From Rubrivivax sp. (lineage in GTDB: Bacteria > Pseudomonadota > Gammaproteobacteria > Burkholderiales > Burkholderiaceae_C), in assembly GCA_027487905.1 (NCBI GenBank), contig JAIYCR010000038.1:1-64000 (forward strand): a stretch of 64,000 bases of DNA. Reading direction: 5' to 3'. Position numbers and translations under genes: made by a program. Positions 53,116 to 64,000 of this stretch are shown here, piece by piece (position 1 is the first letter of the stretch; every line of letters begins with the position of its first letter). The notes beneath the pieces were generated by a model. That model was not told the origin of the DNA. It saw only the letters and a program-made list of their open reading frames with translations, and did no database searches.

Positions 53116-55404
53116 ATGTCCCTGTCGATCCGGTCCCGGCTGCTGCTGCTCATCCTGTCCGTGCTGGTGCCAGGCCTGCTGGGCCTGTCCTGGATGGTGC
53201 TGAGCACCTTGAAGGCCGAGCGTGCTGCCAACGAGCGCCTGCTGCGCGACACCTCCCGCGCGCTGTCGCTGGTGGTCGACCGCGAGCTGGCCCGCCGCGC
53301 CACCATCGGCCAGGTGCTGGCCCAGTCGCGCTGGCTCGACGGGGCGCTGGGCCCGGCCGAGCAGGCGGGCTTCGAGGACCAGGCCCGCCGGGCGCTGGCC
53401 GGCATCGACGGCTGGATCGAACTGCACGGCTCGGGCGGTCGCATCCTGGACACCCGGTCGGACGCCGTGGCCGACGTCGAGGGCCTGAGCCCGCCGCTGG
53501 CCGACGGCTTTTCCCTCGTGGCACTGCGCCTGGCCGGCACGCCCGATGCGCATGCGGCGCTGGTGCAGCCGGTGATTCGCCAGGGGCAGACGCTCTACAA
53601 CCTGCACGTGTCGCTGCGGCCCCGCGAAATGCAGGCCATCATCGACCGCCAGGGCCTGCCCGAGGGCTGGGTGGGCGCGGTCATCGACAACGAAGGTCAG
53701 GTGGTGGCCCGGCACCCGCACGGCGAACGCCATGTGGGCCGTCTGGCCACCGCGGACCTGCGCCAGCACATGAGCCAGGCCACCGAAGGCCTGACCGAGT
53801 CGGTGTCGCTGGACGGCGTGCGGTCGATGGCCTTCTTCAGCCGCTCTCCGATGGGTTGGACCTATGTGAGCGCCATGCCCAAGGCCCAGTTCGCCGGTGC
53901 AGCCTCGCAGGCGGTCATCCACATCGTGGTCGGCGCGCTGGTGCTGCTGGCGCTGTCGATGGCCGCGGCGACCTGGCTGGCCAGGCGCATCGCCGAGCCG
54001 GTGCACGCGCTGAAGGATGCGGCGCTGCTGCTGCAGGCGGGCGATGCGGTCGCGGTGCGCTCGACCGGGCTGGTGGAGTGCGACGAGGTGGTGCTGGCGC
54101 TGGCCGAGGCTTCCGAAACCATCCGCCACGGGCGCGACGACCTGGAGCGCCAGGTGCAGGACGCCGTGCAGCAGACCCGCCTGGCCGAGCAGCGCATCTC
54201 GCAGGGGCAGCGCGTGGAGGCGCTGGGGCGGCTGACCGGTGGCGTGGCGCACGACTTCAACAACCTGCTGGGCGTCATCAGCAACAGTGCCCACCTGATG
54301 CAGCGGCATCCCACGGTGGCGCGGGAGCTTCAGGGGCCGGTGTCGGCCACCTTGAGGGCGGTGAACCTGGGCAGCCAGCTGACGCAGCACCTGATGCGCT
54401 TCGCGGGGCAGCGGCCGGTCTCGCCGCGGGCCTTGCACCTGACGCAGGCGCTGCCCGATGCGCAGGATCTGCTGTCCAGCGTGCTGGGTCGGCGCGTGGA
54501 GGTGTCGGTGCGGGTCGAGCCCGGGACGCTGCCTGTGCAGGCCGATCCGGGCGAGCTCGAACTCGCGCTCATCAACCTGGCGCTCAATGCGCGCGACGCC
54601 ATGCCCCGGGGCGGGCAGCTGCGGCTGCAGGCCCGCAACGCCGATGCCGAGGACCTGCGCAGCCTTCAGGGCCCGTTGTCCGATGGGCGGCCCTTCGTGT
54701 TGATGACCGTGGGCGACACCGGAACGGGCATGCCGCCCGAAGTGGTCGAGCATGCCTTCGACCCCTTCTTCACCACCAAGCCGCTCGGCCAGGGCACGGG
54801 CCTCGGCCTGAGCCAGGTGCACGGCTTCTGTGTCCAGGCGGGGGGCAGCGCCCGCATCGACAGCACGCCCGGCCTGGGAACGACGGTGTCGCTGCTGCTG
54901 CCCGCGCAGCTGGCCACACCTGCCGATCCGTCGGGCATCCAGGACAGCCGCAGCGGCTCGCCCAGCGCCGCGCTGGCGGCCGACCCGGTGCTGGGCGCTC
55001 CCGCCACCGCCACGCTGGCCGGCCAGCAGGTGCTGCTCGTGGAGGACAACCCGACGCTCGCCGAGGCCACCGCCGCCCTGCTGCGTTCGCACGGCGCGCA
55101 GGTCCAGCATGTGGGCAGCGCCGTCGAGGCGCTGGACCGGCTGGGCCGGCTGCCTGCGCAGGCGGTGGATGTCGTGCTGTCCGATGTCGTGATGCCCGGC
55201 CCGATCGATGGTCTGGCCCTGGCCCGACAGCTGCGGCAGGAACGCCCTGCACTCCCGGTGGTGCTGATCACCGGCTTCAGTGCAGCCGCCACGGCCGCGT
55301 CCGACGAATTCACCGTGCTGCGCAAGCCCTGTCCCGAGGGTGAGCTGCTGGCCGCCCTGACCGGCCACAGGGGAAGCCGCGCCAGCGCATCGGCCCCCGC
55401 CTGA
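53116..55404 (+). CDS. hybrid sensor histidine kinase / response regulator
   Basis: A 762-residue inner-membrane kinase. An N-terminal membrane segment (about 8-30), a periplasmic sensor of about 230 residues (Cache-like) and a second segment (about 267-288) are followed by a HAMP-like linker and a coiled coil. HisKA has the phospho-acceptor His379 in GGVAHDFNNLLGVI, of the DFNN subgroup. The ATPase domain has GTGLGLSQVHGF. The receiver domain (LLVEDNPT, phospho-acceptor Asp690 in VLSDVVMPG, Lys737) is at the C-terminus. ATG 53116 is chosen; residues before it (frame from 53002) are low-complexity. The third orphan hybrid kinase of the window, with no DNA-binding partner beside it. Confidence 0.92.
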   Translation: MSLSIRSRLLLLILSVLVPGLLGLSWMVLSTLKAERAANERLLRDTSRALSLVVDRELARRATIGQVLAQSRWLDGALGPAEQAGFEDQARRALAGIDGWIELHGSGGRILDTRSDAVADVEGLSPPLADGFSLVALRLAGTPDAHAALVQPVIRQGQTLYNLHVSLRPREMQAIIDRQGLPEGWVGAVIDNEGQVVARHPHGERHVGRLATADLRQHMSQATEGLTESVSLDGVRSMAFFSRSPMGWTYVSAMPKAQFAGAASQAVIHIVVGALVLLALSMAAATWLARRIAEPVHALKDAALLLQAGDAVAVRSTGLVECDEVVLALAEASETIRHGRDDLERQVQDAVQQTRLAEQRISQGQRVEALGRLTGGVAHDFNNLLGVISNSAHLMQRHPTVARELQGPVSATLRAVNLGSQLTQHLMRFAGQRPVSPRALHLTQALPDAQDLLSSVLGRRVEVSVRVEPGTLPVQADPGELELALINLALNARDAMPRGGQLRLQARNADAEDLRSLQGPLSDGRPFVLMTVGDTGTGMPPEVVEHAFDPFFTTKPLGQGTGLGLSQVHGFCVQAGGSARIDSTPGLGTTVSLLLPAQLATPADPSGIQDSRSGSPSAALAADPVLGAPATATLAGQQVLLVEDNPTLAEATAALLRSHGAQVQHVGSAVEALDRLGRLPAQAVDVVLSDVVMPGPIDGLALARQLRQERPALPVVLITGFSAAATAASDEFTVLRKPCPEGELLAALTGHRGSRASASAPA

Positions 55405-55590
55405 GTTCTTCGACCCACGCCCGTTGCCGGGGGTGGCGTGTGTGGCGGGCAGGCCGGCGTCGGCCAATGCCTGTCGATGCCTGAAAGGCCTGCGGGCACA
55501 TGCCCTGCCCTTGCTGGTGGCGTGGCACCGCGCGGCCTCCTGGCCGCATCCGGTGCCGATGTTCCACCCCGCCACCGAAAGGACTTTCCT

Positions 55591-56046
55591 GTGCAGAACG
55601 ACGACACCATCGACACCCTGAACACGCTCATCGAGACCTCCAAGGACGGTGAGTACGGCTTCCGCACCTCGGCCGAACACCTGAAGAACGACGAGATCAA
55701 GCAGCTCTTCATGCGCCGGGCCGAGGAATGCCGACAGGCCGCTGCCGAACTGCAGGCCCTCGTGGGCACCCTGGGTGGCAAGGCCGAGGACAGCGGCAGC
55801 GCCACCGGCGCCATGCACCGCGGCTGGGTGGCCGTCAAGGCCACGCTGGCCGGCTACACCGACAAGGCCATCCTGGAGGAGACCGAACGCGGCGAGGACA
55901 TCGCGCTGGCGGCCTACCGCAGCGCGCTCGAGGAAGACCTCCCCGCCCAGGTGCGCTCGGTGGTGGAGCAGCAGCTGCAAGGGGTGATGCGCAACCACAA
56001 CCAGGTCCGCACGCTGCGCGACCAGGCCCGCACCGCCAGCGCCTGA
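55591..56046 (+). CDS. DUF2383 (PA2169-family) four-helix-bundle protein
   Basis: A 151-residue protein with the PA2169/DUF2383 pattern: TIDTLNTLIETSKDGEYGF at the N-terminus and EEDLPAQVRSVVEQQLQ at the end, forming a four-helix bundle similar to ferritin-like folds. The role is unknown; members are often induced by stress and may bind metal. The GTG 55591 start has AAGGA seven bases upstream. It lies 22 bases ahead of the antiporter gene, which is probably co-transcribed. Confidence 0.85.
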   Translation: MQNDDTIDTLNTLIETSKDGEYGFRTSAEHLKNDEIKQLFMRRAEECRQAAAELQALVGTLGGKAEDSGSATGAMHRGWVAVKATLAGYTDKAILEETERGEDIALAAYRSALEEDLPAQVRSVVEQQLQGVMRNHNQVRTLRDQARTASA

Positions 56047-56068
56047 CGCCCACGCAGGCGCCGGCTCC

Positions 56069-57334
56069 ATGCTGACCACGGCGCTGGCCCTTTTGGGCCT
56101 GACGCTGCTGGGCATCGCGCTCGGCCATCGCGTGGTCGAGCGGGGGCCGCTCGCTCCGGCGCTGGTCTATCTGCTGGCCGGCTGGGGCGCCGCGGCCGCC
56201 CTGGGCGGCCTGCCGCAGGGGGTGCTGAGCCTCGAGCCAGCGGTGTGGACCCATGTGACGGAAGTCGTCGTGCTGGTCTCGCTGGTGGCGGTGGGGCTTC
56301 GGCTGCGCCTGCCTTTCCTCCTGCCGGCGTGGCGGCAGGCGCTGTGGCTGGCCGGCCCGGGCATGGTGCTGACGGTGGCGCTGTGCACGCTGACCGGCAT
56401 GGCGCTGCTGGGCCTGAGCTGGCCTGCGGCCTTGCTGCTGGGCGCCATCCTCGCGCCCACCGACCCGGTGCTGGCGTCTGAGCTGCGGGTGGCTTCCGAC
56501 CACGACCGCGATTCGGTGCGGGGCGCGCTGACCGCCGAGGGCGGACTGAACGATGCCACGGCGCTGCCTGCAGTGATGCTGGGACTGGGCTTGCTCGGCC
56601 TGCATACCCTGGGGCCGGGCGCATTGGCCTGGATGTGGGCAGACCTCGTCTGGCCCATCGGCGCCGGTGCTGCCTTCGGAGCGGCGCTGGGACTGGCCAC
56701 GGGGCATGCGCTTCGCTGGCGCATGGAACGCGGCGACGAATTGCACCGCGACGAACTCATCTACGTCGGGCTGGTTCTCGTCGCGTACGCGGTGGCGCGC
56801 GTGAGCGGCACCTCCGCCTTCATCGTGGCTTTCGTGGCCGCCGCGTTCGTGATGTCGCCGCTGCACCTGCGGCCCGACGGGCAGGGTGCCAAGCCCCTGG
56901 CCGATCGCATGCTCGCCTTCGGGGGCCGGGTGGAACGCCTGCTGGAAGCGGCTGCCGTGCTGGCCCTGGGCGCCCTGCTGAACCAGGTGCAGTGGAGCGG
57001 CGCGGTGCTGGCCTACTCAGCGGTGATGCTCGGCGTGGTGCGGCCGGCGTCGGTGATGGCCTTCGTCAGACTCGGGCCGAACACCACGCGGCACCAGCGT
57101 CGACTGATGGCCTGGTTCGGCATCCGCGGCATCGGCACCCTCTTCTACCTGGCCTTCGCCATCGAGCACGGCCTGTCGGGCGAGCAGGCCAAGCTCATCG
57201 TCCAGGCTTCGGTGGTGACGGTGGCGATGTCCATCCTGGCCCACGGCGTGTCGGCCACCCCGCTGATGCAGGCCTATCGCCGCAGCGGCGAGCGCCGCCG
57301 GCGGCTGGAACAACGTCGCGCACAGCGCCCGTGA
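56069..57334 (+). CDS. sodium/proton antiporter (CPA1-type)
   Basis: A 421-residue inner-membrane antiporter with 12-13 segments. The unwound helix motif LAPTDPVLASE (Thr131-Asp132-Pro) and the ion-binding EGGLNDATALP (Asn161-Asp162) are both present; an ND pair rather than DD points to the electroneutral CPA1 class. It should exchange Na+ (or K+) for H+ to control pH and salt. The C-terminal tail is short and strongly basic (RRRRLEQRRAQRP). ATG 56069 follows the DUF2383 gene by 22 bases; no strong ribosome-binding site is seen. Confidence 0.9.
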   Translation: MLTTALALLGLTLLGIALGHRVVERGPLAPALVYLLAGWGAAAALGGLPQGVLSLEPAVWTHVTEVVVLVSLVAVGLRLRLPFLLPAWRQALWLAGPGMVLTVALCTLTGMALLGLSWPAALLLGAILAPTDPVLASELRVASDHDRDSVRGALTAEGGLNDATALPAVMLGLGLLGLHTLGPGALAWMWADLVWPIGAGAAFGAALGLATGHALRWRMERGDELHRDELIYVGLVLVAYAVARVSGTSAFIVAFVAAAFVMSPLHLRPDGQGAKPLADRMLAFGGRVERLLEAAAVLALGALLNQVQWSGAVLAYSAVMLGVVRPASVMAFVRLGPNTTRHQRRLMAWFGIRGIGTLFYLAFAIEHGLSGEQAKLIVQASVVTVAMSILAHGVSATPLMQAYRRSGERRRRLEQRRAQRP

Positions 57335-57337
57335 ACG

Positions 57338-57365
57338 AGCCGCCGTGCAGACGGCAGCGGCGGCT
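57338..57365. other. GC-rich stem-loop between convergent genes
   Basis: AGCCGCCG and CGGCGGCT arms (8 bp) around a 12-base loop, between the antiporter and the acidic minus-strand gene. There is no T-run, so it is only a possible factor-dependent end for one or both transcripts. Confidence 0.3.
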
Positions 57366-57392
57366 TCCCGTCGCCCCGACCGCGGGGGGGAC

Positions 57393-57893
57393 CTAGCGCA
57401 CACGCGGTGAGCCGACCTGTCCGTCCTGCGGGGTATCGTCCGCGTCATCGCCCGCAGGGTCATCGTCCAGGCCGTCGTCCGAGCTGTCGGGGTCGACGGG
57501 TTGCAGCTCGGCGTCGGCCACCGCCTCATCGATGAAGGCGAGGTCCGCGTCCTCGTCGTCGGACGCGTCCAGACCACCGTCCTCCAGCGCGAACACGCGG
57601 TCCACCCCGATGTCGGCGGCTTCACGCCCGCTGTCGCCGGCGGCACCCCTGCGTTCGCCGGTTCCCGAGGCATCGCCGGAGGCCGACCGGATGCCGTCCA
57701 CGCTCGGATGAACCGGGCCGTCGTCGGACAGCGCCACATCCACCGGCAGCGTCGGGTCGGCGGCGTCGTCGCCCGCCAGACCCATCAGGTCGCTGCCGCT
57801 GTCGGAGTTGTCCCCCGTGCCCAGGCGATCGGTGTCGCGGCCCTCGGCCTGACGGCGGGCACGCTCGGCGCCGAGAAGACTGCTGTGGGCCAT
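57393..57893 (-). CDS. acidic conserved hypothetical protein (166 aa)
   Basis: A 166-residue, highly acidic, mostly disordered protein (many Asp, Gly and Ser; DADLAFIDEAVADAELQ near the end). Starts MAHSSLLGAERARRQAEGRD; no domain is recognised. ATG 57893 has AGGAG six bases upstream, good evidence that it is real. The frame upstream of that ATG lacks a ribosome-binding site. It is convergent with the antiporter and precedes a gap of about 145 bases. Its function is unknown. Confidence 0.65.
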   Translation of the reverse strand: MAHSSLLGAERARRQAEGRDTDRLGTGDNSDSGSDLMGLAGDDAADPTLPVDVALSDDGPVHPSVDGIRSASGDASGTGERRGAAGDSGREAADIGVDRVFALEDGGLDASDDEDADLAFIDEAVADAELQPVDPDSSDDGLDDDPAGDDADDTPQDGQVGSPRVR

Positions 57894-58038
57894 GTCGGCT
57901 CCTGTGCGAATGAACGGGACATCCCCGCACAAGGCTTCAGGCAAATGCGGTGCCCTGAGCAGCGGCTGGGAGTCGACCGGGTTTGCCGGGCCGCGCCAGT
58001 GCGGATCCACCGCCATCGGCACCCGATGCGCGCCTGGC

Positions 58039-59004
58039 TCAGGGCCGAAGCGCGTCCCCGCGCAGCCGCTCGTCGAGCGAGGGGGCGAACACCAGCCGGT
58101 CGGCGGCATAGCCGCGGTCGTGGGCCAATTGCACCAGCGCCATCAGTCGGTCCAGTGGCGGCTCAGGGTCCCGGCTCATCAACCACAAGCGGCTTCGGGC
58201 AGGGTTGCCCACCAGCGCCTCCTGGTAATGAGGGTCGACATGAACGACGGCCTGCGCTTCCCAGGCAGCGGGCAGCGCCTGCAGCAGGGCCGGCCAATCG
58301 CTCCATTCCAGCTGCGTGCCTGCCGTCCCGGGGACGGTGCGGGCGGTGTGGGACTCGCTCGCCGCGGCGGAACCGCCCGCAGCGGTGGACGAGCGCAGCA
58401 GGATCTCGATGCTGCCGTCCGGTTGCGGCACCCAGTCCATCGGGCCGGTGATTGGCGCCCGGCGCGAAAGCCGGGGTGCCAGCGATGCCACAACGTGCCA
58501 GCGCCCGGAAAAACGCCGGGCATCCACCGCGTCCACCGTCAGCAAGGGACTGGGCGGGCGGCGCACCAGCCACTCGGCCAGCGGAAGCCCGAGCGACACG
58601 GCCGCGCTGGCCATCGCCGGGCTGACCCGGGCCCTCAGGTGAGCGGGCAACAGCGGCCAGGCCAGCCCGAGCAGGCGAATCCAGCCTGCGCCGCCGCCTG
58701 CGCCCAGCGGCGCAGCGCCTGCAGCAGCAGTGCCGGCAGCCCAGGCACCCGAGCCGCCCGACGCCCGCGGCGCCAGGCCCCGCGGCACGCCGCGCACTGG
58801 ACGTCGGCGACCGCGTTGCAGCCGCCAAAGTCCCAGCAGCATCGCAGCGGCGCCTGCCATCAACGCGGGCGATCTCAGACGGCGCGGGCTGAACTGCCGG
58901 CGCAGGCTGCGCCAGCCAGCGCCCAGCTGGCGGCGGATGCCTTCTTCCCGGTCGATGAGCCGCAGTTCCACGGCCTGTATGCGCTGTTCAAGGTCCTTGG
59001 CCAT
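58039..59004 (-). CDS. lipocalin-like protein with N-terminal coiled coil and membrane anchor
   Basis: A 321-residue fusion. Residues 1-25 look like a coiled coil (DLEQRIQAVELRLIDREEGIRRQ), a membrane segment lies at about 46-61, and a second hydrophobic Gly/Ala-rich part at about 85-145. The C-terminal 160 residues resemble a bacterial lipocalin (Blc-type): RFSGRWHVVASLAPR (the GxW start signature), SIEILLRSS, and a final SRDPEPPLDRLMALVQLAHDRGY. Lipocalins bind lipids or other hydrophobic molecules. ATG 59004 is one base after the stop of the holin-like gene. The domain mix is unusual and may place a lipid-binding domain at the membrane. Confidence 0.72.
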   Translation of the reverse strand: MAKDLEQRIQAVELRLIDREEGIRRQLGAGWRSLRRQFSPRRLRSPALMAGAAAMLLGLWRLQRGRRRPVRGVPRGLAPRASGGSGAWAAGTAAAGAAPLGAGGGAGWIRLLGLAWPLLPAHLRARVSPAMASAAVSLGLPLAEWLVRRPPSPLLTVDAVDARRFSGRWHVVASLAPRLSRRAPITGPMDWVPQPDGSIEILLRSSTAAGGSAAASESHTARTVPGTAGTQLEWSDWPALLQALPAAWEAQAVVHVDPHYQEALVGNPARSRLWLMSRDPEPPLDRLMALVQLAHDRGYAADRLVFAPSLDERLRGDALRP

Positions 59005-59005
59005 G

Positions 59006-59542
59006 TCAGGTTTCCGCGCCGGCAGCAGGCCCTGCGGGGTTGAGCTTGGGGTTGGGCGCCGCACCCGTGGGGACCACCGGCTGCGGGAACACCGTGGGAA
59101 CGGTGTGGCGGGGCGAGGGAGAAGGCATCAGGTGGCGCCGGGTGGCGGGCAGCGCGATGGACGGCAGCAATCGGCGGATGCGCCAGGCCGCCCAGAGCAT
59201 CACGCCCAGGTTGGCGATCACGGCCACCAGCAGGGCGACCGGCGAGGGCAGCCCCAGGTGGATGAGAAGCCCGACCAGGGCGGCCCACACCAGCAGCCAG
59301 GTGGTCACGCCCAGCACGGTGAGCATGACCAGGAGCGCCGCCACCTGCGCCAGCGCGCGAGCGGCCCGCTGCAGTTCCAGGCTGAGCAGCTCGATGCGGT
59401 CACCGACCAGGCCGGGCAGTGCGCGCCACAGTGCCTGGAACTGTCCCATCAGTCCCGGCCCCCCCGCCGGTGCGTCCGGTGGAGGTGGCCCGGTGGGCGT
59501 CGCGGGCGGGTCGGGTGCCGACGGTTGGGCGGCCTCAGCCAT
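59006..59542 (-). CDS. phage holin-like small membrane protein
   Basis: A 178-residue protein with a Pro-rich leader (about 30 residues), an amphipathic stretch (LPGLVGDRIELLSLELQRAARALAQ is the type seen in the Holin-X family) and two membrane segments (about 66-95 and 98-118). It ends in a basic, Pro-rich tail. Such chromosomal proteins share the holin-like fold but are not part of a phage here; no lysis genes are nearby. ATG 59542. Between DUF883-like and lipocalin-like genes on the same strand with gaps of 5 and 1 bases, so all three are co-transcribed. Confidence 0.75.
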   Translation of the reverse strand: MAEAAQPSAPDPPATPTGPPPPDAPAGGPGLMGQFQALWRALPGLVGDRIELLSLELQRAARALAQVAALLVMLTVLGVTTWLLVWAALVGLLIHLGLPSPVALLVAVIANLGVMLWAAWRIRRLLPSIALPATRRHLMPSPSPRHTVPTVFPQPVVPTGAAPNPKLNPAGPAAGAET

Positions 59543-59547
59543 GGCGA

Positions 59548-60180
59548 TCAGCGGCTCAGCCGAGACACCAGCACGCCCACGGCCACGGCGGTGGCCAGCG
59601 CTGCCAGCGGGTTTTCGCGCACCGTGCAGCGAAGGCTCTCGGCCCACTCGTCGCCCACGTCGCGGGCCTCGTCCGCACGCGAGCTGAGCCGGCTGCCCGT
59701 GGTGCTGACGCCTTGCTGCAGCTTGTGCACATGGGGCGCGGCAGCGTCGGCCAGGCGGTCGATGGTGTGGTGCGCGCCCTGCACCACCCGCGAGAGCAGG
59801 TCGGAGCCTGAACCGCTGCGCTCATGGCCCGAGGCCTGCGCGTTCGACCCCTCGGGATCGTCCAGGCCGTCCAGCGTGCCCTGCCCGGAGCCCGTCGCGG
59901 AAGACGCGGGCATCGAGCGGTAGGACGCGCCTTCGGTGGCGCTGCCCAGGCTGTCGGCGCCCGCGGGCCAGGGGGCGCTCGAAGCCGCTGAGCGGCCCGC
60001 GCCGGAAGTGCCCGAAGTGCCGGAAGTGCCCGATGCGCTCGAAGCGCCCGAGCTGCCGGCCGCCATGCCGCCGCTGGAGCCGCTGGAGCCGCCGGGGGCG
60101 CTAGTCGCGCCGCTCCCGGAAGAACTGCCCGGCCCGTTGGCCGATGCGGAGGTGGGGAAGGGAAGATCGGTCGTGGCCAT
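59548..60180 (-). CDS. DUF883/ElaB-YqjD-like membrane-anchored protein
   Basis: A 210-residue protein. The first 100 residues are Ser/Gly/Ala/Thr-rich with repeated Gly-Thr-Ser triplets. The second half (about 120-187) has helices (LLSRVVQGAHHTIDRLAD) like ElaB/YqjD proteins and ends with a C-terminal anchor ENPLAALATAVAVGVLVSRL. ElaB/YqjD-type proteins sit on the inner membrane and can bind ribosomes in stationary phase. The long Ser/Gly-rich leader is not typical. ATG 60180; part of the operon with GlsB-like, holin-like and lipocalin-like genes. Confidence 0.75.
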   Translation of the reverse strand: MATTDLPFPTSASANGPGSSSGSGATSAPGGSSGSSGGMAAGSSGASSASGTSGTSGTSGAGRSAASSAPWPAGADSLGSATEGASYRSMPASSATGSGQGTLDGLDDPEGSNAQASGHERSGSGSDLLSRVVQGAHHTIDRLADAAAPHVHKLQQGVSTTGSRLSSRADEARDVGDEWAESLRCTVRENPLAALATAVAVGVLVSRLSR

Positions 60181-60221
60181 ATCAGTCCTCGGTTCGATGC
60201 AGGTTCGGCAGCAGCGGCGCC

Positions 60222-60491
60222 TCAGCGCGGCGAGCCACGGCGGAAGAGATTGACGATGGCCAGCAGGATCACCGCGCCCACCAGCGAGACCAGCAGCGAG
60301 CCCATGCTGAACGACCCCTGGTTGATGGTGCCCACGCCCACCAGCGGCGAGATGAACCAGCCACCCAGCGCCGCACCCACGATACCCACGATGATGTTGA
60401 GCAGCAGACCCTGCTGCCCGTTGGTCCGCATGATCATGCTGGCCACCCAGCCGATCAGACCGCCCACGACAAGCCAAATGATGAAGTTCAT
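60222..60491 (-). CDS. GlsB/YeaQ/YmgE-family stress-response membrane protein
   Basis: An 89-residue protein with three membrane segments (MNFIIWLVVGGLIGWVAS, LLLNIIVGIVGAALGGWF and SMGSLLVSLVGAVILLAIV). The glycine-rich segments are the family mark; relatives are transglycosylase-associated and general-stress-induced. ATG 60491 has GGAG seven bases upstream. First gene of the minus-strand envelope-stress run that continues with the DUF883-like protein 41 bases later. Confidence 0.9.
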   Translation of the reverse strand: MNFIIWLVVGGLIGWVASMIMRTNGQQGLLLNIIVGIVGAALGGWFISPLVGVGTINQGSFSMGSLLVSLVGAVILLAIVNLFRRGSPR

Positions 60492-60581
60492 GTGTCACTC
60501 CGGTTAGTAGCGGGATGGTCCGCTGCGCTGCTGAGGCAAACGCGGTGCCATGACGGCTGCCGGCGAACGCAGCAGACCGCT

Positions 60582-60956
60582 TCAACCCGCGGTGGATGCG
60601 CGCCGCCGCCAGGCCAGCAGACCGGCGGCGAACAAGGCCCCCAGCACCAGCAGCCCCGGACGCAGGCGCATCGCGGTGCGCTGCGCGGGAGCCGCTGGCA
60701 CCGCCGCGGCCGGCGGCGCGGCAGGCTTCATCGCCATCGCGCCCGCGATGGGTGAGGCAAGCGCCTGCGCCAGGGCGGTTCGCAGCGCGCGCGCTGGATC
60801 AGCGACTTCCCCGCTGGCGGGGGCCCCCGCCGCCACGGACGGCCTGAGCTCAGCCGCCCGCTCACCGCGACGGGCATCGGGCGGCAGCGGCCCGAATGCG
60901 GCGGCCAGGCCCAGCATTACCAGCACACCGAAGTAGAGGGAAGCACGCAGGCTCAT
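60582..60956 (-). CDS. small membrane protein, unknown function (124 aa)
   Basis: A 124-residue protein: an N-terminal hydrophobic segment (LYFGVLVMLGLAAAFG), a Pro/Ala-rich middle, and a C-terminal segment (GLLVLGALFAAGLLAWRRR). No domain is recognised. ATG 60956 has GGAG six bases upstream. It faces the hemerythrin gene at 61072 across 115 bases and stands 90 bases ahead of the GlsB-like gene. Confidence 0.6.
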   Translation of the reverse strand: MSLRASLYFGVLVMLGLAAAFGPLPPDARRGERAAELRPSVAAGAPASGEVADPARALRTALAQALASPIAGAMAMKPAAPPAAAVPAAPAQRTAMRLRPGLLVLGALFAAGLLAWRRRASTAG

Positions 60957-61071
60957 CAGGGGCTCCAAACCCCGATGCGGGCAATCGGCGCGCCAGCGGC
61001 GGCGGGCCCGTCGGGCACCCGCGTTGCCGCCGCCGGGCGGCCCATCCACCGTTCCAACCCAGGAGACTCGC

Positions 61072-61683
61072 ATGAGCCTGCTCACCCCGGTCCTCGCCAA
61101 GGTGTCCCCCAACGTCACCCAGATGATCCGCATCGACCACGCCGCCGTCGTGGCCCTGTTCCACAAGGTCCGCCCCGACCAGCCCGAAGGCGTGCGCGCG
61201 GCTGCCGCCCGAAGCATCTGCCTGTCCCTGGAGATCCACGCCCAGCTGGAAGAGGAGATCTTCTATCCCGCCGTGCGCGACGCGGGCATCGACTCGCCGG
61301 TGCTGGAGATGTCCGTGCCGGAACACGACGAGATGCGCCGCCTCATCGCCCGGGTGCGTGAACTGCAGGCCCAGCCGGCCGAGCGCGACCAGGCGGTGCG
61401 CGAACTGATGTCGGCGGTGATGCACCACGTGGCCGACGAGGAGACTCAGTTGCTCGCCGCGGCCGAGCGCCAGATGAGCCCCAAGGAGCTGGAGACGCTG
61501 GGCGGGCGCATGAGCGAGCGCCGCCTGGTGCTGATGAAGCCGCACCTCGGGGAGATGGCGGGCAACCATGCGCGGGCCATGCCGATGCAGACCGCTGTGC
61601 TCGCCATGGGCGCGGTGGCCATCGGTGCGCTGCTGTTCGGGCGGCGCGGCACAGCCCGCACGGCGTACGCACGGCGCTGGTGA
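61072..61683 (+). CDS. hemerythrin HHE domain protein with C-terminal membrane anchor (4 of 4)
   Basis: A 203-residue protein. HHE motifs are IDHAAVVALFHKV, EIHAQLEEEIFYPAVRD, PEHDEMRRLIARV and HHVADEETQLLAAAE. Unlike the three other copies it ends in a hydrophobic segment (MQTAVLAMGAVAIGALLFG) and a short basic tail, so it is probably fixed to the inner membrane. ATG 61072 has AGGAG upstream. It lies 63 bases ahead of the acyl carrier protein on the same strand and could belong to that transcript. Confidence 0.88.
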   Translation: MSLLTPVLAKVSPNVTQMIRIDHAAVVALFHKVRPDQPEGVRAAAARSICLSLEIHAQLEEEIFYPAVRDAGIDSPVLEMSVPEHDEMRRLIARVRELQAQPAERDQAVRELMSAVMHHVADEETQLLAAAERQMSPKELETLGGRMSERRLVLMKPHLGEMAGNHARAMPMQTAVLAMGAVAIGALLFGRRGTARTAYARRW

Positions 61684-61746
61684 TGGAGGCGTGAAGACTT
61701 CGCCTGCCCCGGCTGTGGCGGGCACCGGGCTTGCCTTGCCGCCAAG

Positions 61747-62073
61747 GTGAACCCGACCACCGACACCCAAGCGCTCCATGAGCAAGTGCTACTGACCTTT
61801 GCCCGCGAAGCGGGTGTGGATCGGGCGTCCCTCCACCTGGACATGCGCGCCGAGGAGCTCGGCTTGGGGTCGCTCGATCTCACGCTCGTGCTCTTCGAGC
61901 TGGAGGACAAACTGGGCATCCGGCTGCCCGACTTCCCGGCCGGTGCCCAGCAGATGACGCTGCGCGAGCTGATGGCCGAGGCGACGCCGCGGGCCGCTCC
62001 GACCACCGCCACCGCCACCGCCACCACTGCACCGGGCGCTGCCAGCACCTGCGGACCTGGCGCGTCGGCCTGA
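61747..62073 (+). CDS. acyl carrier protein-like protein
   Basis: A 108-residue protein with an ACP-type fold in the first 75 residues. The phosphopantetheine site is LGLGSLDLTLV: the attachment serine is present but the usual Asp before it is Gly. ELEDKLGIRLPDF matches helix III. The last 30 residues are Thr/Ala-rich. The start is GTG 61747, which lacks a strong ribosome-binding site; the N-terminus is uncertain. It stands 52 bases ahead of the ketosynthase gene. It probably carries the acyl chain for that enzyme. Confidence 0.8.
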   Translation: MNPTTDTQALHEQVLLTFAREAGVDRASLHLDMRAEELGLGSLDLTLVLFELEDKLGIRLPDFPAGAQQMTLRELMAEATPRAAPTTATATATTAPGAASTCGPGASA

Positions 62074-62125
62074 CCCGGACCGGACGCCTCGAAGGCTTCG
62101 ACCGGGTCGACCCTGCAGCAAGGCC

Positions 62126-63475
62126 ATGGCCAGCGCCCCCAACGGACGCGCCGCAAGCGGCTCGGGCCCGTCGATGCCCGGTTCGCCGCGCCGCGTGGCC
62201 GTCACCGGCGTGGGCACGGTGAACGCCTGTGGCGGGGATGCCCTGGCACTGGCCGCGGCCCTGCGCCGTGGCACCTGCGGCATTGCCCTTCACGAAGGCA
62301 GCCCCTGGCCGCAGGCGCGGGTCACCGGCTTTCGTGGCGAGGACCACTTCGGTCCGCGCGAGCTGCCGCTGCTCGACCGGGCCGCGCAGATGGCGCTCGT
62401 GTCGGCCCGCCAGGCCGTCCACCAGGCCGTTCATCAAGCTGTCGATCAAGCCATTGATCAAGCCGCGGGGCCTAGGGTGTCCGCCCCGGTCACCCAGCAC
62501 GGCCCGAGCACACGCATGGCCCTGGGTGCGCACCTCGACCTGGACCCCGACCGCTGCGGCGTGGTCTACGCGGCCAGCCTGGGCCACCACACGCTCGAAG
62601 AGGGCTACGAAGCCTTCCACCGCGAGGGCAAGCGACGGCTGCATCCCCTGCTGGTCCCACGCGGCATGCCCAGCGCGTCGGCCAGCCAGCTGTCGATGGC
62701 CTTCGGGCTCACCGGCCCCACGCTGGCCACGGCCAGTGCGTGCGCGTCGTCGACCCACGCCATCGGCCTGGCCTTCCAGTTCATCCGCAGCGGCCTGCTG
62801 GACCTGGCGCTCACCGGAGGCGCGGAGGCTTCCCTCGTGCCTGGCATGGTGTGCGCCTGGGAGGGCCTGCGGGTGCTGAGCCCCGAGGCCTGCCGGCCCT
62901 TCAGCGCCGACCGCTCCGGCCTCGTCATGGGTGAGGGGGCCGCCACCCTGGTGCTCGAGGAATGGGAACACGCGCGGCGGCGCGGCGCGGTGGTGCTGGC
63001 CGAGGTGCTCGGCCTGGGCATGAGCGCCGACGCGGCGGACATCACCGCACCCAGTGCCAGCGGCGCCGTGCGGTCGCTGCGCGCTGCGCTGCGCGACGCA
63101 GGCCTGCACCCCGCACAGGTGGACTATGTCAATGCGCACGGCACCGGCACCCGGCTGAACGACCCGAGCGAGGTCGCGGCGCTGCGCGAGGTGTTCGGCG
63201 CGCATCTGGACGGCTTGCCCGTGTCGTCCAGCAAGGGCCAGTTCGGCCATGCGCTGAACGCTGCCGGTGCGCTCGAGGCGGTGGTCACGGTGCTCGCGTT
63301 GCAAGGCGGCTTCCTGCCGGCTTCGGTGGGCTTTCGCCAGAGCGACGCCCAGTGCGCCATCGACTGCGTGCCGCTGCCGGGCCGATCGGCGGGGCTGCGG
63401 ATCGCGGTGTCCAACTCCTTCGCCTTCGGCGGGCTCAATGCCACGCTGGTGCTGGGTCGGGCGGAGCCCTCATGA
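62126..63475 (+). CDS. beta-ketoacyl-ACP synthase (KAS II-like)
   Basis: A 449-residue thiolase-fold condensing enzyme. Active Cys is in TASACASSTHA, the two histidines in YVNAHGTGTRLNDP and SSKGQFGHALNAAG, and the end is NSFAFGGLNATLVLG. All three catalytic residues are present, so it should extend acyl chains by malonyl-ACP condensation. An insert with four imperfect 12-bp repeats (QAVHQAVHQAVDQAID, DNA 62411-62466) lies in a variable loop. Its stop overlaps the type III polyketide synthase start as ATGA. Together with the ACP it probably supplies a long or branched starter chain for the downstream enzyme. Confidence 0.92.
   Translation: MASAPNGRAASGSGPSMPGSPRRVAVTGVGTVNACGGDALALAAALRRGTCGIALHEGSPWPQARVTGFRGEDHFGPRELPLLDRAAQMALVSARQAVHQAVHQAVDQAIDQAAGPRVSAPVTQHGPSTRMALGAHLDLDPDRCGVVYAASLGHHTLEEGYEAFHREGKRRLHPLLVPRGMPSASASQLSMAFGLTGPTLATASACASSTHAIGLAFQFIRSGLLDLALTGGAEASLVPGMVCAWEGLRVLSPEACRPFSADRSGLVMGEGAATLVLEEWEHARRRGAVVLAEVLGLGMSADAADITAPSASGAVRSLRAALRDAGLHPAQVDYVNAHGTGTRLNDPSEVAALREVFGAHLDGLPVSSSKGQFGHALNAAGALEAVVTVLALQGGFLPASVGFRQSDAQCAIDCVPLPGRSAGLRIAVSNSFAFGGLNATLVLGRAEPS
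62411..62466. repeat. four imperfect 12-bp tandem repeats in the ketosynthase gene
   Basis: Units at 62411, 62423, 62435 and 62447 plus a partial fifth unit code for Gln-Ala-Val-His/Asp. The repeats keep the frame and map to a variable loop of the protein. Confidence 0.8.
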
Positions 63476-64000
63476 ACTCGAACGCCGCTTTCCTGGCCGG
63501 CGTGGGGCTGGCCACGCCGCCCCACGAGGTGCACGGCGCCTTCGTCGCCTATGCACGCGGCCTGCTGGCCGACCCCCGAGAGCAGCAGGTCTTCGACCGC
63601 ATGGCCGAACGAAGCGGCATCGAGCGCCGCCGAGCGGTGCTGCCGGCCGGTCGGCTCGAGCACGGCGAGGTGGACGCCGAGGGCTTCTACCGGCCGGGTG
63701 CCTTTGCCGGCACGGGTGTGCGCATGGACCGCTACGAAGCCGAGGCGCTGCCGCTGGCGTCCCGCGCGGTGCAGGCGCTGGGCACGCGGCTGGGCATCAC
63801 CGAGCTCGATCTGCCGGGCATCACCCACCTCGTCGTCGTGTCGTGCACCGGGTTTTCGGCACCCGGCCTGGATGTCGGGCTGATCGACGCGCTGGGCCTG
63901 AGCCCCCGCGTCCAGCGCACCGTGGTGGGCTTCATGGGGTGCTCGGCGGCGCTGCCGGCGCTGCGCATCGCCCAGGCCACGGTGCTGGCCGACCCGCGCG
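63472..64000 (+). CDS. type III polyketide synthase (partial, cut by window end)
   Basis: The first 176 residues of a chalcone/stilbene-synthase-type enzyme, running off the window. It begins MNSNAAFLAGVGLATPPHE, and contains GIERRRAVLP, HLVVVSCTGFSAPGLDVG and VGFMGCSAALPALRIA, which holds the active-site Cys; the His and Asn of the triad lie beyond the window. In bacteria such enzymes make alkylresorcinols, alkylpyrones or flaviolin-like products from acyl and malonyl units. The start overlaps the ketosynthase stop by 4 bp (ATGA), so it is made with it. The presence of an ACP and ketosynthase points to a lipid-type starter. Confidence 0.92.
   Translation, partial: MNSNAAFLAGVGLATPPHEVHGAFVAYARGLLADPREQQVFDRMAERSGIERRRAVLPAGRLEHGEVDAEGFYRPGAFAGTGVRMDRYEAEALPLASRAVQALGTRLGITELDLPGITHLVVVSCTGFSAPGLDVGLIDALGLSPRVQRTVVGFMGCSAALPALRIAQATVLADPR

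Follow-up and report, generated by a model that had tools for sequence, protein, structure and literature searches.

Why would a type III polyketide synthase (T3PKS) be preceded by an acyl carrier protein (ACP) and a ketosynthase (KS), and what could such a pair do for it? This question is raised by the end of a stretch of 64,000 nucleotides of Rubrivivax sp., here called the window, which covers positions 1-64000 of a contig of 165 kb (JAIYCR010000038.1); genes past 64000 were read on the same contig. We found that the ACP, the KS, the T3PKS, a methyltransferase (MT) and a FAD oxidoreductase (FAD) form a five-gene operon. The KS groups with NodE-type KSs and apart from FabF, with moderate support. 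As the best explanation, held with moderate confidence, we propose that a pair resembling NodF/NodE shapes an acyl chain, carried by the pair's own ACP, with the help of host enzymes in trans, and would hand this chain to the T3PKS for the synthesis of a phenolic lipid.

Gene order and enzymes of the operon

The ACP (61747-62073, GTG start, 108 amino acids), the FabF-like KS (62126-63475, ATG start, 449 amino acids) and the T3PKS (63472-64629, 385 amino acids) are consecutive genes on the plus strand at the window end. Open reading frames and Pfam matches agree here with an earlier sequence-only reading of this DNA, which had also noticed that the KS stop and the T3PKS start share an ATGA (63472-63475). 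That reading took the cluster to be cut by the window end. Accordingly, only the first 176 of the 385 T3PKS codons lie within the window (63472-64000), and the MT (64629-65384) and the FAD oxidoreductase (65381-66559) follow on the plus strand past its end. The T3PKS and the MT overlap as TGATG, the MT and the FAD gene as ATGA, and the reading frames of all five genes are open.

The complete T3PKS matched the N- and C-terminal Chal_sti_synt domains of Pfam (4.7e-19 and 5.7e-20; 69.2 and 72.3 bits at a cut-off of 27). Its catalytic triad of Cys157, His291 and Asn324 is present, and each of these residues is kept in 92/92 homologues. Moreover, an AlphaFold2 model of the protein reached a pLDDT of 91.8, and in a Foldseek comparison of this model with the PDB the best 50 rows were all type III polyketide synthase chains, fusions or complexes. 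The MT is a class I methyltransferase (Methyltransf_25, 2.9e-10). The FAD oxidoreductase matched FAD_binding_3 (8.6e-9); its best NCBIfam match, the geranylgeranyl-reductase family, stayed below the cut-off (72.9 vs 158.8 bits). A T3PKS beside a class I methyltransferase and a FAD oxidoreductase is the T3PKS-MT-FAD layout of phenolic-lipid operons, and the suggestion of a phenolic-lipid-type cluster made from the window alone is borne out by this usual tailoring pair. Unrelated downstream genes or a synthase lacking its His or Asn had been named as arguments against a coupled pathway; neither was found, with the MT and FAD genes downstream and His291 and Asn324 in place. A search past 64000 for tailoring and transport genes had been advised as well. 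It yielded the two tailoring genes; directly behind them no transport gene was seen, and a response regulator (Pfam) stands there instead after a gap of 52 bases.

A specialised carrier protein

The ACP matched the Pfam PP-binding family (4.3e-6; 27.3 bits at a cut-off of 20.8). Its serine sits in a GSL motif in which the Asp of the usual DSL is replaced, and its C-terminal tail is of low complexity. Among T3PKS-linked ACPs the serine was kept in 29/29, preceded in all 29 by S, A, G or P, so that the Asp was lost throughout; it is also missing in the unlinked ACPs L144, L146 and L151 and in one NodF. The window ACP could be matched to the host AcpP over 26 residues only. This host AcpP carries the DSL and lies among fab genes on another contig (gene names assigned by eye), and by its GSL and its position outside a fab operon the window protein fails as a housekeeping AcpP. 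Judged from these sequence features, it is a specialised ACP.

The ketosynthase groups with NodE

The KS had been called KAS II-like. This holds for its FabF-like domains, as both ketoacyl-synt domains of Pfam were matched (N-terminal 2.7e-33, C-terminal 8.6e-33), but not for its assignment, since it scored 354.5 bits against a cut-off of 493.75 for the NCBIfam FabF (KAS II) equivalog and groups with NodE. It shares 42% identity with the host FabF over the part matched and up to 60% with other T3PKS-linked KSs. Catalytic residues are conserved in the linked enzymes, with the Cys in 29/29 covering that site and two His and the Lys in 30/30. Compared with three aligned KSs, the window protein is extended at its N-terminus and carries an insertion near residues 100-138.

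In a first KS tree the T3PKS-linked KSs and NodE joined with a bootstrap/SH-aLRT support of 93/94, which is below the 95 mark. For a second tree ten KSs and two FabF-like rows were added and some rows thinned; it included 21 of the 29 linked KSs, eight near relatives having been dropped, and the long-branched references L105, L107, L109 and L110 were left out. The ACP-KS family with NodE held at 89/91, again below 95, and L141, labelled FabF, was placed outside the FabF rows. A motif which we take to be the FabF gating loop (Ala/Gly-F/M-G-G) gave the same division. F-A-F-G-G or F-A-M-G-G was present in 30/30 T3PKS-linked KSs, in 29/29 other ACP-KS rows and in 5/5 rows of the NodE clade, while FabF-like rows have Gly (F-G-F-G-G) in 10/11 and Ala in the remaining one (L169). 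The window KS reads AFGG and not the GFGG of FabF. A stray FabF copy, which we had considered as well, was ruled out by the score, the trees, the gate motif and the presence in the host genome of a second, housekeeping-like fabH-fabD-fabG-acpP-fabF-like set on another contig (names by eye).

The link to nodulation genes was also seen on plasmids. Of 799 plasmid records matched by the KS search, 60 were considered, taken at even steps, so that closer KSs may exist among the rest; of the 60, the thirteen KSs ranking next after that of Sphingobium yanoikuyae were all rhizobial and 39-42% identical to the S. yanoikuyae enzyme. Of three rhizobial loci that were examined, two adjoin nodABC and the third a gene of the nodA family; in each the KS directly follows an ACP, the arrangement of NodF-NodE.

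As a side observation, the KS of L151 (G541:C16) falls among the T3PKS-linked KSs of Sphingomonadales in a genome without a T3PKS match, where the ACP-KS pair may have been left behind or put to a new use. An 'AOS' label for the neighbours of L146 and L151 proved wrong, since Pfam identifies them as a class-III aminotransferase and a radical-SAM enzyme.

An optional pair before a commoner core

To place the window among its relatives we used a set of 92 T3PKS loci, made up of the window, one genome of the same order (L008), 10 plasmid loci picked from 20 of 189 records, and 80 genome contigs from 107 relatives found with search patterns from the window row and four carriers. As this set is biased by the query, the carriage of the ACP-KS pair in 30 of 92 loci is not a prevalence; 52 loci lack the pair and 10 have too little upstream sequence. 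The order T3PKS-MT-FAD was found in 49 loci and ACP-KS-T3PKS-MT-FAD in 18, the window included. In 11 the MT is divergent upstream of ACP-KS-T3PKS-FAD, one locus is cut before the ACP (L049, counted for the KS only) and one (L079) has a housekeeping-like KS and ACP. The remaining 12 lack the MT or FAD gene, have another order or are cut. L079 was rejected as a carrier because an acpP-fabF pair close by, of the housekeeping type and with DSL, accounts for its KS and ACP; the locus was relabelled and the counts redone. Wherever carriers had upstream sequence, ACP and KS occurred together (29/29).

The order ACP-KS-T3PKS recurs in other genera and orders and is therefore not a chance arrangement of the window. 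Plasmid pKN1 of S. yanoikuyae shows the identical gene order, with KS and T3PKS also overlapping by four bases, and further carriers are Novosphingobium pentaromativorans pLA3, Lichenicoccus roseus, Croceicoccus, Sphingomonas vulcanisoli and two Burkholderiaceae metagenome bins. Together, the 30 carrier loci span Burkholderiaceae, Acetobacteraceae/Rhodospirillales and Sphingomonadales. Among 398 evenly sampled Pseudomonadota genomes a T3PKS was found in 12 at E <= 1e-60, the window's included, and all 12 had FAD and MT matches beside it (the MT match of L161 is weak at 67 bits, the others reach at least 260). Within the window's own order a T3PKS was present in 2 of 399 genomes at E <= 1e-40, and the other genome lacks the pair at the locus. 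Thus, the dedicated ACP/KS pair of the sequence-only reading stands as far as the ACP is specialised, and is refined here to an optional minority addition to a commoner T3PKS-MT-FAD core.

Searching 398 Pseudomonadota genomes for the KS, we obtained scores which start at 509 bits and, among the matches listed, run into a crowded range at and under about 351 bits; the host FabF, with 344, belongs to this range. In the best 29 KS loci other than the window, the KS always has an ACP as its neighbour, and a T3PKS was absent from the 1.5 kb examined; 26 of these loci adjoin an LpxD-like acyltransferase. These 26 (L113-L140, out of L112-L140; e.g. L147, L148 and L149) represent a conserved set of LpxD-like hexapeptide acyltransferase, ACP and KS, 25 of the 26 belonging to one family (f95). 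Their KSs are of the family to which the window KS belongs.

Divergence of the pair and the synthase

Such loci raise the possibility that the ACP-KS pair serves the synthesis of a different lipid and just lies next to a T3PKS which uses ordinary acyl-CoA or AcpP-bound chains. The LpxD-linked loci fit this explanation, as do the absence of the pair from 52 of the 82 T3PKS loci that could be judged and from 11 of the 12 members of the even sample, and the occurrence of ACP-KS pairs in genomes without a T3PKS match (G541, G487, G602). We nevertheless consider it unlikely, given the four-base KS/T3PKS overlap in both the window and S. yanoikuyae, the spread of the carriers over three lineages and the matched divergence of KS and T3PKS. 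Carriage of the pair required 6 changes on the T3PKS tree and never fewer than 19 after shuffling (n=200; L079 relabelled); these counts exclude ten rows in which a KS is missing and the upstream sequence is shorter than 2 kb. In 29 loci the pairwise distances of KS and T3PKS were correlated with r = 0.905, a value reached in 0 of 2000 permutations, and all ten gene pairs of the operon correlated in distance (r 0.678-0.905).

The window copy itself is unusual. No other T3PKS of the 92 in the tree has as long an end branch (1.06) or departs from as large a share of the conserved columns (9 of 92). By the same measure the KS ranks second of 30 (5/80 columns), the ACP second of 29 (1/8), the FAD oxidoreductase seventh of 85 and the MT thirtieth of 84. 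It could thus be asked whether this copy is decaying or changed in function, and the branch length, the departures of T3PKS, KS, ACP and FAD oxidoreductase, the low-complexity tails of ACP and T3PKS and the insertion in the KS would all agree with that. However, the five open frames, the retained catalytic residues, the high pLDDT of the T3PKS model and the inconspicuous rank of the MT make it very unlikely. Low-complexity stretches (His-Gln-Ala-Val repeats; Thr-Ala repeats) occur in three neighbouring genes, namely in the KS insertion at about 100-138 and in the C-terminal tails of ACP and T3PKS; those of KS and T3PKS are absent from the relatives aligned.

Proposed function and points against it

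In the mechanism that we favour, the NodE-type KS would lengthen an acyl chain on the dedicated ACP, with host FabG, FabZ and an enoyl reductase acting in trans as in NodF/NodE. The catalytic Cys of the T3PKS would accept the completed acyl chain directly from the ACP, and the enzyme would add malonyl units and cyclise the product, whose ring the MT and the FAD protein would decorate. The ACP-KS pair would thereby fix the length or the unsaturation of the lipid tail. We infer the hand-over from ACP to T3PKS by analogy with T3PKSs which take acyl-ACP, of which PMC6274091 names Gcs, SCO7671 and ArsB/ArsC, the latter two supplied by ArsA. The transfer from CylB to CylI runs by way of type I polyketide synthases, and HidC putatively takes acyl-ACP as well, according to PMC8086630.

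The predicted product is an alkylresorcinol which probably undergoes methylation and an oxidation leading towards a hydroquinone or quinone. Excerpts of PMC10896814 describe T3PKS-MT-oxidoreductase operons whose products are alkylresorcinols in Planctomycetota and hierridins in cyanobacteria; there the planctomycetal MT is probably a C-methyltransferase, HidA acts as an O-methyltransferase, and the products of SrsA/FtpA undergo oxidation to quinones. T3PKSs of Acetobacteraceae (Roseomonas) are predicted to make pyrones or resorcinols, as an excerpt of PMC8776678 states. The Rubrivivax genome also holds a type I polyketide synthase cut by a contig end (G000:C41; L100:735-7163, minus strand). 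A scan of 1422 of its 2143 residues showed ketoreductase, dehydratase, ACP and thioesterase domains.

By Pfam, no ketoreductase, dehydratase, enoyl reductase or transporter is among the five operon genes. Together with the complete catalytic residues of the KS, the lack of reductive enzymes would also suit a single unreduced condensation, after which the beta-ketoacyl-ACP is handed to the T3PKS and fewer malonyl units are needed, following the logic of germicidin synthase. A title cited in PMC6274091 (ref. 74) names the selectivity of a type III polyketide synthase for beta-ketoacyl-ACP starters. What makes this variant improbable to us is that the core is common to carriers and non-carriers, which suggests the same number of T3PKS condensations in both, and that the nearest characterised relatives, NodF and NodE, serve polyunsaturated chains needing reduction and dehydration. 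NodE also participates in the polyunsaturated chains of Nod factors. For NodF, an involvement in their C16 polyunsaturated chains is described in PMC9542644.

Several observations weigh against the tailoring and hand-over proposed here. In the even sample only the window's own T3PKS has such a KS within 1.5 kb, the other 11 of 12 being without. L025, L027 and L028 branch inside T3PKS lineages of carriers, and no such KS was found in their genomes, whose completeness is not stated (best scores 289-320 bits, host FabF 344). Since these loci have the core, T3PKS-MT-FAD can probably work without the pair. Likewise, genome G097 (92% complete), which holds the sister T3PKS of the window (L008), has no KS above 352 bits. 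In the second KS tree the T3PKS-linked KSs do not form one clade (4 changes), but fall into two groups, which enclose the unlinked pairs L144 and L151; a single recruitment of the pair is therefore not established. The Ala of the gate motif also occurs in L104, L152 and L169, which are KSs without demonstrated ACP linkage. Besides, we looked for a T3PKS signature of ACP docking in carriers and rejected it, as differences at the seven inspected residues that differ most by carrier class (42, 62, 78, 193, 210, 253 and 335) largely follow lineage, judged by inspection and not by a formal test. The nested non-carriers keep their neighbours' residue at 6/7 (L027), 5/7 (L025) and 4/7 (L028) of these positions, L008 keeps the window's residue at 3/7, and a clean sequence signature for ACP use was not seen. 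Finally, the divergence of the window T3PKS suggests that its own product may differ.

Neighbouring genes

Upstream of the operon lies a hemerythrin gene, identified by Pfam. The genes at 55438-56046, 60222-60491 and 61075-61683 of the window comprise this one and, presumably, those for a DUF2383-like helical bundle and a GlsB/YeaQ-like membrane protein, both named by eye. They resemble a general stress island, and a lipid produced under stress or in stationary phase would suit such surroundings. Beyond the response regulator, hypothetical, phosphatase-like and glycan genes were read by eye from the open reading frames; among them are what we take to be a NodU/CmcH-like carbamoyltransferase, glycosyltransferases and a heptosyltransferase-like protein (L005 13796-16108; contig 74796-77108). 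An Rfam scan of 7 kb and a tRNA scan of 55000-64000 gave nothing informative.

Comparison with known systems

The hidABC and planctomycetal operons contain the same three enzyme classes in one operon as the window, and the srs locus of Streptomyces griseus is likewise a T3PKS-methyltransferase-oxidoreductase operon. HidA/B/C and SrsA/B/C are likened to the window by enzyme class and not by sequence. The order in the hidABC and planctomycetal operons is MT-oxidoreductase-PKS according to PMC10896814, whereas in the window T3PKS-MT-FAD is preceded by ACP and KS.

Gcs is reported to work with housekeeping acyl-ACP. Gcs and CylB/CylI resemble the proposed system, by description and not by sequence, in that the T3PKS is fed by acyl-ACP; their partners differ, with CylI served via type I polyketide synthases. 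ArsA-ArsB/ArsC of Azotobacter vinelandii also has a fatty-acid-making partner beside the T3PKS, and the Ars T3PKSs make long-chain resorcinols or pyrones. ArsA, which makes C23-C25 chains for ArsB and ArsC as stated in an excerpt of PMC4824345, is a type I fatty acid synthase, whereas the window has a free-standing ACP and KS without reductive enzymes, plus the MT and FAD genes.

NodF-NodE shares with the window the adjacent specialised ACP and KS, the placement of the KS in one group and the Ala in the gate motif. It differs in the acceptor, which is NodA there and would be the T3PKS here; no nod genes were found by Pfam among the five operon genes and the two adjoining ones, or by eye in the wider neighbourhood. 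The window ACP lacks the Asp of the DSL, which is present in two of four NodF rows, with DSI in a third and the Asp lost in L101.

We tentatively suggest, though with some doubt, that NodF/NodE-type pairs are a portable acyl-tailoring cassette placed before the NodA system, LpxD-like hexapeptide acyltransferases and type III polyketide synthases, the window representing a discrete type II donor line whose chain is perhaps polyunsaturated or very long. This suggestion is weakened because 25 of the 26 LpxD-linked loci belong to one family and are thus nearly one lineage. In the literature outside subscription journals, covered mostly through titles and the openings of abstracts, we found no work joining a type III polyketide synthase with NodF or describing this operon. 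The parts are known; a T3PKS phenolic-lipid operon joined to an ACP-KS pair of the NodE type was not encountered in that literature. The five genes offer a small, expressible system for studying how type III polyketide synthases can be supplied with starters by a free-standing carrier protein, and they link the ACP-KS pair of nodulation to a wider use.

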